Source: an uncultured Elusimicrobiales bacterium (GTDB lineage: Bacteria; Elusimicrobiota; Elusimicrobia; Elusimicrobiales; Elusimicrobiaceae). Taken from it: a DNA stretch of 64,000 nucleotides. Positions 52,666 to 56,181 of this stretch are shown piece by piece (within the stretch, counting starts at the first letter, position 1; each line of letters starts with the position of its first letter). A program made the position numbers and the translations under genes. The DNA lies in the NCBI GenBank assembly GCA_944324645.1, contig CALUXB010000002.1:124001-188000 (forward strand). Direction: 5' to 3'. The notes beneath the pieces are model-generated. The model was not told the DNA's origin, did not search any database, and saw only the letters and a program-made list of their open reading frames with translations.

Positions 52666-53001
52666 TTATTTAAAATCCACCCGCTGGCCCACTTGCACCC
52701 GGCCCTGCAAAGTGCCGCCGGGCATTTCCAAAGTTTGCACCGCGTGCGCAAAAATGGGGCTCATACGCCAAGGTTTCATATTTTCTTTTACATACAAAAC
52801 CGTACCATCTTCGGCTAAAAAAAGCACATCAATAGCAAAGCGCATAAAACACGTATGTATCTGCGGACAAGGCGCTAACAGCAAGGCGCGCCCTTGCGGC
52901 AAAGAGGCACGAAACATCAGCCCTTTGAGCCTTTTAAAAAAACTAAAGGCGGGCTCCACCTCTTGGGCTAATACCGTGCCGTCTTCTAAAACACATTTCA
53001 T
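52666..53001 (-). CDS. DUF192 family protein
   Basis: 111 residues without a signal peptide: DUF192 pattern with FFKRLKGLMFRASLPQGRALLL, HTCFMRFAIDVLFL and a final VQVGQRVDFK. Function unknown; the family is a small beta barrel. It overlaps the preceding gene by 4 nt (ATGA), so it is the last gene of the M24-M24-efp cluster. Confidence 0.88.
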   Translation of the reverse strand: MKCVLEDGTVLAQEVEPAFSFFKRLKGLMFRASLPQGRALLLAPCPQIHTCFMRFAIDVLFLAEDGTVLYVKENMKPWRMSPIFAHAVQTLEMPGGTLQGRVQVGQRVDFK

Positions 53002-53450
53002 AGATTTTTCTCCGCCAAGCGGATCAAATATTTTTTGACTTGCTTTTCTAACTTCTTATCTTTAAAAATTGCTTCTTGTGGAGTTTTAACAGAAAAACCT
53101 TCTTTATTTTTAAACACCAAAAACGTTAAAGTAATCTCATTATTAAAATCCACATCCGCTATCAGCATATTTTCATTGGTAAATGCTTTGCGGTAATCCG
53201 CCGACACAAAGTGCACGTCCTGCACCGAATAGCGGCAGTCTTTTTTACATTGAAGCAGGAAATCATATACGTCTTTTTCTAACACTTTGACGTTCTTATA
53301 TTTTCCGCCTGTCTGCGGCAAGAGCAGCACGCCGTTTTCCAGTTTTACGTCTTTTACGTCCAATACATTCCCGTAGGAAAAAGTAAAAGCGCACGCCGGT
53401 ACGCAGAACAACAAGAATAACAACACCGGCGCGCGCTTTAACCAAAACAT
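52998..53450 (-). CDS. Exported protein of unknown function
   Basis: 150 residues with a signal peptide (cleavage likely after VPACA). The mature domain is mixed alpha/beta, has two Cys (LQCKKDC) and ends in a very basic helix. No family recognised. It overlaps efp by one base and the DUF192 gene by 4 nt. Confidence 0.75.
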   Translation of the reverse strand: MFWLKRAPVLLFLLFCVPACAFTFSYGNVLDVKDVKLENGVLLLPQTGGKYKNVKVLEKDVYDFLLQCKKDCRYSVQDVHFVSADYRKAFTNENMLIADVDFNNEITLTFLVFKNKEGFSVKTPQEAIFKDKKLEKQVKKYLIRLAEKNL

Positions 53451-54022
53451 TATTTGGGCTCCACCACGCGCTCCACATAAGAGCCGGTGCGGGTGTCCAC
53501 CAAGATTTTGTCGCCTTCATTAATAAAAAGCGGTACCTTGATTTCCGCGCCCGTTTCCAACGTGGCCATTTTGGTCATATTGGCTACCGTATCGCCTTTT
53601 ACGCCAGGCACGGTGGAGGCAATGGTGAGGGGCACTTTAATGGGCAGCTCCATATTGAGCAGCTGACCGTTAATATAAATACCCGTCGTTTCCATATTAT
53701 CTTTCAAATATTTTTTCTGGTCTTTGAGCTTTTCTATGGGCACAGAAACCTGCTCATAGTTTTCGCTGTTCATAAATACCGCCATATCGCCCTCGTCATA
53801 CAAATACGTGAACGGGCGTTTTTCCACTTCCACTTCTTTAAATTTATCTTCGGGCCGGTAGGCCGTTTCAATCAAAGAACCGGTGTGAATATTGCGCAGT
53901 TTTACGCGCACCACGGCGCGGGCCTGGCTTTTGCGGTGATGTTGGAACTCAATGATTTCTACAATCTGTCCGTTTTCATCTTCAAAAATCAGTCCGTCGT
54001 GGAACTGGGTGGTGTTAATCAT
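53450..54022 (-). CDS. efp: Elongation factor P with non-canonical tip loop
   Basis: Relieves ribosome stalling at polyproline. 190 residues, three beta-barrel domains, full length. The loop that contacts the P-site tRNA reads HHRKSQARA: aligned to canonical HVKPGKGAA, the functional Lys is replaced by Gln (Q33), and the Pro-Gly pair is lost. The C-terminal domain looks normal. No epmA/epmB, earP or ymfI-like modification gene is beside it. It follows two M24 peptidases, an association known for efp. AGAGG ribosome binding site. Confidence 0.95.
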   Translation of the reverse strand: MINTTQFHDGLIFEDENGQIVEIIEFQHHRKSQARAVVRVKLRNIHTGSLIETAYRPEDKFKEVEVEKRPFTYLYDEGDMAVFMNSENYEQVSVPIEKLKDQKKYLKDNMETTGIYINGQLLNMELPIKVPLTIASTVPGVKGDTVANMTKMATLETGAEIKVPLFINEGDKILVDTRTGSYVERVVEPK

Positions 54023-54061: not shown

Positions 54062-55117
54062 TTAATTTTTCGTCAAATTTTTACTGCCGGTGTGGGTTAC
54101 CTGGTAGCTGTCTTCTAAACGCACGCCAAATTTGCCCGGCAAATAAATGCCCGGCTCTACGGTAACTACATAGTTTTCTTCCAGTTCTCCCACCGCGCCG
54201 GCACGCTCAGTAGGAGCTTCGTGCACTTCCAAACCGATGCTATGGCCCGTGGTGTGAATATAATAGGGCCCATATCCGGCATCTTCAATTACGTCCCGTG
54301 CGGCTTTATCCACTTGGGCGACAGGCAACCCCGCACGCAACAAACCGGCAGCCGCTTCTTTAGCCATAGCAACAATGTGCCAAATTTTCGTATATTCTGC
54401 CGGCTCTTTGTCCCCGTGCCACCAGCTGCGGGTAATATCGGAGCAATAGCCTTTATAAAAACAGCCAAAGTCCATCAAAATAGCGTCGTTCTTTTTCAGC
54501 TTGCGCTTGGCAGAAGGGGTATGGTGGCAATCGGCACAATTTTCCCCAAAGCACACAATGTTAAAAGGTACGCTGTCTGCCCCGCGCTTGAGCATTGCCA
54601 CCGCCATTAGCACACGCACGTCTTCTTCGCTCATACCGGTTTTGATTTGGGGTTTTACTTCGTTAAACGCTTCGGCAGCTATACGGCAGGCCTTTTTAAC
54701 TAAATCCATTTCATCGGCATATTTTACCTTGCGCATCTCGGCCACGCCCCCTTCTAAGCGGCACAAACCTGCACGGGCCAATTGCTCGCCACGGGCAAAA
54801 TCTGCTGTTTGGGGATCAAAAGCCAAGCGGGTCAATTTCTTCTCTACCGCCAACTCTAAAGCCGCCCCCAACATATCGCCTGCTACCGCTTGCACCGTAA
54901 AAAACCCCGCTGCCGGAGCCATTTTAGGCACAATCATTTTTTTAGTCAGACAATATGCTTTGCGCGGAGTCAACAAGAAAACCGCCTCTTCGGCGTCTAT
55001 TTCTATGCCGGAAAAATAACGCAACTCCAACGCACTTAAACAGAGATATCCGTCTAATTGCGCATTTTTAAGGAACTTCTGAAAGTCTTTTAAACGCTGG
55101 GCACTTAGATTTTTCAT
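54062..55117 (-). CDS. M24 Xaa-Pro peptidase, copy 2
   Basis: 351 residues, pita-bread fold. Metal ligands fit M24: MDFGCFYKGYCSDITRSWW (two Asp), HTTGHSIGLEVHE (His), and VTVEPGIYLPGKFGVRLED (two Glu). An N-terminal creatinase-like domain spans ~1-125. It is a clear paralogue of the next gene upstream, with near-identical stretches around the second Asp and C-terminal Glu. It starts 2 nt after that gene's stop. Confidence 0.92.
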   Translation of the reverse strand: MKNLSAQRLKDFQKFLKNAQLDGYLCLSALELRYFSGIEIDAEEAVFLLTPRKAYCLTKKMIVPKMAPAAGFFTVQAVAGDMLGAALELAVEKKLTRLAFDPQTADFARGEQLARAGLCRLEGGVAEMRKVKYADEMDLVKKACRIAAEAFNEVKPQIKTGMSEEDVRVLMAVAMLKRGADSVPFNIVCFGENCADCHHTPSAKRKLKKNDAILMDFGCFYKGYCSDITRSWWHGDKEPAEYTKIWHIVAMAKEAAAGLLRAGLPVAQVDKAARDVIEDAGYGPYYIHTTGHSIGLEVHEAPTERAGAVGELEENYVVTVEPGIYLPGKFGVRLEDSYQVTHTGSKNLTKN

Positions 55118-55119
55118 AA

Positions 55120-56181
55120 TTACTTACGGGTCAAAATATCCGCCCCTGTGTCCGTAATCACCGTGGTATCTTCCAACCGCACCCCGAACTTGCCCGGCAG
55201 ATAAATGCCCGGCTCCACCGTAACCACGTTGCCTTTTTTCAGCACGGCATTGGTGGTTTGGTCGTTGCAGGGCTCTTCGTGTATTTCCATACCCACGCCG
55301 TGGCCCAAACGGTGCGTAAAATACTCTCCGTATCCGGCATCGGTAATAATGCCGCGGGCGGTAGCGTCCACTTTTTGGGCCGCCACACCGGGTTTTTCCG
55401 CCGCGATACCGCTCTGGCGGGCTTTATCTACAATATGCCAAATTTTGGTATATTCTTCCGGCTCTTTGTCTCCGTGCCACCAACTGCGGGTGATATCTGA
55501 GCAATAACCGTTATAGATACAGCCAAAGTCCATCAGCACCGCTTCATTGTCTTTGAGTTTGCGGTGGGATGTTTCGTGATGCGGATTGGCCGTATTTTCA
55601 CCAAAAGCAATAATAGTTAAAAAAGAAGTGGCAGATGCGCCTTTTATGCGCATAAACTTTTCCATTTCTGCCGCTACTTCAAATTCGCTGACGCCCGTTT
55701 TAAGCAAAGGCTTGATATACTCGTAGGTTTCATAAGCGATGCGGCAACTGTCACGCAAAATAGCCAGTTCATACTCATCTTTTGTTTGGCGCAACAAAGA
55801 GATATGACTGTCCGTCTCCACAAATCCGGAAGCTTTGAATAAACTGCCCGCCATATAATTTTCCTTTTCGGCGTCAAACCCTACGCGTTTTAAACCCAAA
55901 CGCGCCGCTGCTGCTACGGCTGCGGCAGTTCTTTCTTTATCTTGCCCGATTACTTCAATAAAAGGAAACATCTTTTTTAAAGGAGCTTCATACAATTGCC
56001 GAGTAAAACATATCAGCCCGCCTTCATAGAGCAAAAGCACCGTTTCCCCGGCATAGAAATAAAAACCCAAAATATAGAACTGGTCTATATTGTTTGTAAT
56101 TACCAATCCGTCCAGCCCTGCGGTTTTCATCAACTCTTTAAGGGCTGCTGTTTTTTCTAAAACTCTTTGTTGTGACACCAT
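55120..56181 (-). CDS. M24 Xaa-Pro peptidase, copy 1
   Basis: 353 residues. Same layout: creatinase-like N-domain, MDFGCIYNGYCSDITRSWW, HRLGHGVGMEIHEEP and VTVEPGIYLPGKFGVRLED. Cleaves X-Pro peptides in known families. AAGGAG site. It heads the operon with its copy, efp, an exported protein and DUF192. Confidence 0.93.
   Translation of the reverse strand: MVSQQRVLEKTAALKELMKTAGLDGLVITNNIDQFYILGFYFYAGETVLLLYEGGLICFTRQLYEAPLKKMFPFIEVIGQDKERTAAAVAAAARLGLKRVGFDAEKENYMAGSLFKASGFVETDSHISLLRQTKDEYELAILRDSCRIAYETYEYIKPLLKTGVSEFEVAAEMEKFMRIKGASATSFLTIIAFGENTANPHHETSHRKLKDNEAVLMDFGCIYNGYCSDITRSWWHGDKEPEEYTKIWHIVDKARQSGIAAEKPGVAAQKVDATARGIITDAGYGEYFTHRLGHGVGMEIHEEPCNDQTTNAVLKKGNVVTVEPGIYLPGKFGVRLEDTTVITDTGADILTRK

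Follow-up and report, generated by a model that had tools for sequence, protein, structure and literature searches.

An elongation factor P with glutamine at the loop tip, conserved in Elusimicrobia and recurrent in other phyla

Results

The efp locus

The 64,000-nt stretch of Elusimicrobiaceae DNA analysed here (the window) comes from a gut bacterium near Candidatus Avelusimicrobium, with 97% protein identity to A. excrementipullorum. On its minus strand lies efp (53450..54022), encoding a 190-aa elongation factor P (EF-P) with the loop that we call Q-type. Its KOW-like N domain and two OB-type domains are recognized by the three EF-P Pfam models (PF08207, 48.5 bits; PF01132, 67.1; PF09285, 91.9), and the protein scores 214.2 bits against the TIGR00038 efp equivalog, above the cut-off of 185.8. 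PDB matches are EF-Ps, with E-values down to 4.8e-20, and the best solved relatives are all EF-P. The AlphaFold2 model has a mean pLDDT of 84.8, with about 68 in the loop block. The genome assembly (9 contigs, 1.51 Mb in total, 91.49% complete) gave one efp match, and nearly all Q-type relatives at 98–99% completeness also have a single efp.

Upstream of efp is an M24 peptidase of the creatinase/prolidase type (54062..55117, minus strand), which belongs to the conserved efp neighbourhood and shows no sign of a role in EF-P modification, followed by a tandem paralog (55120..56181, minus strand); both were assigned with Pfam/NCBIfam. This tandem of Xaa-Pro type peptidases (54062-56181), directly upstream of efp, is conserved in Elusimicrobiaceae. 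Downstream, an uncharacterised 150-aa gene has a start that overlaps the end of efp (52998..53450, minus strand), and its product had zero Pfam or NCBIfam matches at E <= 0.001. Homologs of this protein adjoin efp only in Elusimicrobiales among the loci examined, and are absent beside the Q-type efp of family f7 and of other phyla examined. With a DUF192 protein these genes make up the neighbourhood and, as originally noted, no known modification gene is among them.

Glutamine at the tip of the beta3-beta4 loop

Codons 28–36 (CAT CAC CGC AAA AGC CAG GCC CGC GCC, 53941..53915) specify the beta3-beta4 loop HHRKSQARA (53915..53941, minus strand), placed by codon reading and AlphaFold2. The window loop QHHRKSQARAVVR aligns with zero gaps to the K-type Elusimicrobiota loop QHHKPGKGGAVMR, HHRKSQARA pairs gap-free with QHHKPGKGGA from sister families, and the same holds for the PGKG-type EF-Ps of Clostridium, Staphylococcus and other solved structures. 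Gln33 (codon CAG, 53924..53926, minus strand) therefore falls on the column of the tip lysine, Lys34 in E. coli and Lys32 in B. subtilis, and Lys31 lies at −2. Arg30 (53933..53935, minus strand), at −3, marks the only loop position that is basic in every Q-type EF-P examined. In the AlphaFold2 model, beta3 spans residues 20–28, the loop 29–37 and beta4 38–44, with residue 33 at the centre; the equivalent loop in a K-type sister model (29–35) is centred on K32. The canonical active form of EF-P has Lys or Arg at the loop tip, where the window protein has Q33.

The original prediction, that the tip is Gln rather than Lys or Arg and that the flanking Pro-Gly has been lost (RKSQA), is thus borne out by the gap-free alignment, the CAG codon and the position of Q33 in the middle of the modelled loop, structure prediction being among the checks it had proposed. 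We found no second canonical efp in the genome or in the window's order as sampled, and alignment with other Elusimicrobiota EF-Ps leaves Lys31 at −2 and does not move it to the tip.

Distribution within Elusimicrobiota

Gln occupies the tip in 78/78 distinct Elusimicrobiota Q-type sequences, and Arg at −3 and Ser at −1 are likewise invariant, except for one truncated record at −3. The neighbouring positions vary: −2 is Lys in 65/78 and Met in 13/78, and +2 is basic (Arg or Lys) in 64/78 and Ala in 14/78. Loops read in the window's order follow HHRKSQ[AS][RK]A, those of f7 are HHRKSQ[AS]AA or RMSQSR/K, and that of family f5 is HHRMSQSAA; [HNQ]HKPGKG is found in all 44 of the phylum's K-type sequences. 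Q-type tips are encoded by CAG (64) and CAA (40), and the fixation of Gln across the clade with both codons excludes a sequencing error.

In an EF-P tree built with the loop masked, the Elusimicrobiota Q-types form one clade (support 0.95), and in a ValRS tree all 19 of the Q-type genomes sampled group together (support 1.0). The agreement of the two trees points to long vertical retention. The Gln tip has stayed fixed from the ancestor of much of the class Elusimicrobia onward, and the simplest reading is that a single switch from Lys to Gln occurred within the class and was passed on vertically. In family f8 a K-type (G089) occurs alongside Q-types.

Six relatives carry an extra EF-P paralog with the loop H[TA]G[GA]G[KR][TSA]G: four in f5, one in f27 (G202) and one in f7 (G190) (loci L129, L130, L131, L132, L133 and L059). 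In the four f5 genomes it sits beside the Q-type EF-P; in G190, which also has a Q-type, its tip is Arg. No such paralog was found among the genomes sampled from the window's order. A stranger tip than Gln occurs in two related Elusimicrobia, G125 (f9, L063) and G200 (f25, L121). Their EF-P, apparently the sole one in each genome, has the loop QNHKMAAEEAVMR, which places Ala on the tip column with two Glu directly after it; the two genomes agree, with a tree support of 0.997. Giant proteins are suggested by 18 called genes totalling 45,993 aa in 140 kb of G125 (contig C23, L336-L342), and by 47 called genes totalling 37,817 aa in 120 kb of G233 (contig C17, L304-L309).

Independent origins in other phyla

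The genome scan also returned Gln-tip EF-Ps in a Caldimicrobium and a Zixiibacteriota genome. The Thermodesulfobacteria order sampled contains 9 Q-tip and 21 K-tip distinct sequences, and some of their loops differ at the tip alone (Q-tip QHSKVAQGQATVR, K-tip QHSKVAKGQATVR; KVAK to KVAQ). The Zixiibacteriota class sampled contains 20 Q-tip and 10 R-tip distinct sequences (QHARTAQRRANVWT and QHEKTARRRANVWT, respectively), the change being from R or K to Q. Genomes of either group with an EF-P match have one match each. Lys (AAR) and Gln (CAR) codons are one base apart, and Gln and Arg codons can be too (CGA/CAA).

Like the 78 Elusimicrobiota sequences, the 9 Thermodesulfobacteria and 20 Zixiibacteriota Q-type sequences are invariant for Gln, and every Q-type combines a basic −3 with Ser or Ala at −1 and a residue other than Pro at −2. 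Gln-tip EF-P arose separately in Elusimicrobia, Thermodesulfobacteria and Zixiibacteriota, giving at least three origins, and each time the loop was remodelled along the same lines, with [RK] at −3, [SA] at −1 and Q at the tip, and with Pro missing from −2. The count of tip changes inside Zixiibacteriota is uncertain.

Modification genes

With the EpmA model (TIGR00462), 0/120 genomes of the phylum scored over the cut-off, compared with 2/14 control genomes, and the matches within the phylum are tRNA-synthetase-like or tRNA-synthetase-sized proteins. EpmB (TIGR03821) was over the cut-off in 0/60 genomes and in one control. The EarP search (PF10093) gave 0/120 genomes, a weak negative since zero control genomes matched. 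Beta-lysylated (EpmA-type) EF-P combines a tip Lys in PGKG with epmA and epmB, rhamnosylated (EarP-type) EF-P a tip Arg with earP, and a hypusine-type factor an acceptor Lys at the tip with deoxyhypusine synthase. The window protein belongs to none of these types: its loop is RKSQA, its tip is Gln where the EarP type has Arg (the gene part of this comparison being weak), and the tip is without Lys.

A deoxyhypusine-synthase-like protein (PF01916) was found in 32/32 sampled genomes of the window's family and in most other Q-type genomes, whereas PGKG-type families gave no match or a weak match only, a contrast that holds even within f8. In the window's own genome its gene lies at G000:C3:78161-79042 (L453:4084-5163). 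To our knowledge, the Gln amide is not an acceptor of deoxyhypusine-synthase chemistry. By family model (NF002699, 587 bits, cut-off 500) the protein is a 1,9-bis(guanidino)-5-aza-nonane (caldomycin) synthase, a family represented by an enzyme of the Thermus homospermidine route (PMC10981699), and in f7 its gene adjoins an agmatinase-family gene. It is present in two genomes whose EF-P loop is without Lys (G071 and G095) and missing from several RKSQ genomes. We therefore rejected this polyamine-route enzyme as the EF-P modifier, and do not tie it to EF-P; its tracking of Q-type genomes, which is tight enough to note, probably reflects shared ancestry.

In Thermodesulfobacteria the gene for BpsA (PF01861), a branched-chain polyamine synthase, lies upstream of efp at a distance of a few bases (L212:542-1597, L357-L376). 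In the order sampled, this adjacency is seen in all Q-tip genomes and in some K-tip genomes. BpsA was rejected as an explanation of the Q tip, because it accompanies some K-tip efp genes and none of the Elusimicrobia efp loci checked has it.

Polyproline load

ValRS retains its PPP motif in 19/19 Q-type ValRS sequences read (IVIPPPNITG in the window's own genome, L262). In a screen based on crude ORF calls in samples of 60–448 kb, and thus no precise measurement, the observed/expected ratio of Pro-Pro was 0.87–1.18 in six Q-type genomes from other families than the window's, including two f5 genomes that also have a second EF-P, and 0.87–1.03 in six K-type genomes; one Q-type sample contains 34 PPP in 36,606 aa. 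Most Q-type bacteria thus still make polyproline proteins, and the normal loads, together with the retained ValRS PPP, suggest that Q-type EF-P is probably functional. The window's own genome, sampled as the window plus L146-L165 (about 30% of the genome, and one genome of the family), has Pro-Pro at 0.68 of expectation (95% interval 0.57–0.78), below all other Elusimicrobia sampled, and 4 PPP observed vs 11.3 expected. This depletion could mean a weaker EF-P in this family. Loss of polyproline as the way in which Q-type EF-P is tolerated fits this one own-family genome and fails in other Q-type families; we rejected it. YebC/ABCF motif searches in the sampled part of the genome gave no matches, an uninformative negative since the other motifs tried did not match either.

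Discussion

According to models of EF-P action, the CCA end of tRNA-Pro is held steady by a long, positively charged and usually modified side chain. We favour, with slightly better than even confidence, the reading that the window protein is a genuine, functional Gln-tip EF-P that acts unmodified with a re-shaped loop. Such a loop would do the proline-bond work by itself, a strategy comparable, though not in sequence, to that of modification-free actinobacterial EF-P and EfpL. The Lys/Gln swap in an otherwise unchanged loop (QHSKVAKGQATVR and QHSKVAQGQATVR) suggests that the Pro-less loop operates independently of an enzyme-modified amine. E. coli EF-P is inactive as K34Q, P32S/G or G33A/S (PMC6544042), so Gln alone is insufficient in a canonical loop; unlike these single mutants, natural Q loops alter −2, −1 and the tip together. 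We hold with somewhat greater assurance the broader view that Q-types are a repeatedly evolved class that would aid proline peptide bonds with no charged tip, through either a plain Gln plus backbone or a novel modification of the amide. Our literature search found no paper on how Gln-tip EF-Ps work, nor on Elusimicrobiota EF-P in particular, and these proteins probably work in a way nobody has studied.

The original prediction proposed that Lys31 and Arg35, two residues to either side of the tip, might replace the missing charge. The window protein has both residues, as does every sequence of its family that was examined, and −3 is always basic in Q-types. K-type relatives carry a basic −3 too, however, so that residue is no compensation. 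Position −2 is Met in 13/78 Elusimicrobiota Q-types, Val in Thermodesulfobacteria (KVAQGQ), and Lys in neither of the other two phyla; +2 is Ala in 14/78 and Gln in the KVAQGQ loops; and f5 (HHRMSQSAA) has neither Lys at −2 nor a basic +2. As a general mechanism this substitution is not supported by the alignments, and we regard it as improbable. More improbable still is an artefact or misalignment, with another residue as the true tip, a broken gene or an overlooked canonical efp. An assembly just 91.5% complete leaves some room for it; the gap-free alignment, the modelled loop centre, the invariance of Gln over dozens of independent assemblies and the single efp of nearly all the more complete relatives have already largely refuted it.

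A modification of Gln33, for example amide methylation or an amide-linked extension added by a not-yet-known enzyme, is unlikely, yet among the alternatives we take it most seriously. Release factors carry an amide methylation on the Gln of GGQ, the known Lys and Arg modifications of EF-P fall on the same position, and Gln is strictly fixed while its neighbours vary. Most tested EF-Ps gain activity through tip modification, and unmodified K34Q has no activity in E. coli (PMC6544042). Nonetheless, there is no candidate enzyme, PF01916 being a caldomycin synthase missing from several Q-type genomes, and the interchange of Lys and Gln in one loop context speaks against a residue-specific enzyme there. 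Somewhat less credible is that Q-type EF-P has been weakened or retired from polyproline work, with ABCF ATPases (YfmR/Uup) or YebC-family proteins taking over. YfmR or YebC2 each supports B. subtilis without EF-P (PMC11990639), which, with the inactivity of E. coli K34Q and the Pro-Pro depletion of the window's own genome, is consistent with such a handover. The other Q-type families show no depletion, however, strict conservation of the loop throughout the class leaves no sign of drift, and three or more origins share common features, all of which argue against this reading.

A conserved Gln-tip EF-P in polyproline-bearing bacteria means either that a reshaped loop can dispense with the charge or that there is a new protein modification. 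Ready-made test pairs are available in the three independent lineages, in one of which K-tip sisters differ by a single loop residue.

Comparison with known EF-P types

Lys-type PGKG EF-Ps (E. coli Lys34, B. subtilis Lys32, K-type Elusimicrobiota) share with the window protein the three domains, the length and position of the loop, a basic −3 and a single housekeeping efp. The window protein differs in having Gln for Lys, and no EpmA or EpmB was found; in Elusimicrobiota Q-types, Lys or Met replaces Pro at −2 and Ser replaces Gly at −1. Arg-type EF-P, rhamnosylated by EarP in Pseudomonas and Neisseria, is also without Pro at −2, but the window tip is Gln, not Arg, and EarP was undetected (a weak negative). 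EfpL (YeiP) and actinobacterial EF-P dispense with tip modification by means of an altered loop, as we propose for Q-types, and neither has a tip Gln. The actinobacterial protein retains Lys at the tip. EfpL occurs as a second copy beside EF-P and has an extended loop (more than seven residues) tipped by Arg, whereas the window EF-P has a Gln tip, is a single copy, shows no loop insertion in the alignment and scores 108 bits against TIGR02178 (EfpL; cut-off 264).

Asn, Gln, Met, Ser and Gly tips are known to exist (Sieber et al. 2024, PMC11611912), and Gln tips made up 0.6% of 1166 EF-Ps, never with Pro at −2 (Volkwein et al. 2019, PMC6544042). The window EF-P, with the same tip and the same absence of Pro at −2, falls into this Q-tip class. 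The earlier Q-tip EF-Ps were only counted; here we describe the retention of the Gln tip across a clade, its repeated origins and the accompanying [RK]-x-[SA]-Q pattern. Gln-tip EF-P is thus a known rare class, of which the members described here are new and unusually well-supported.
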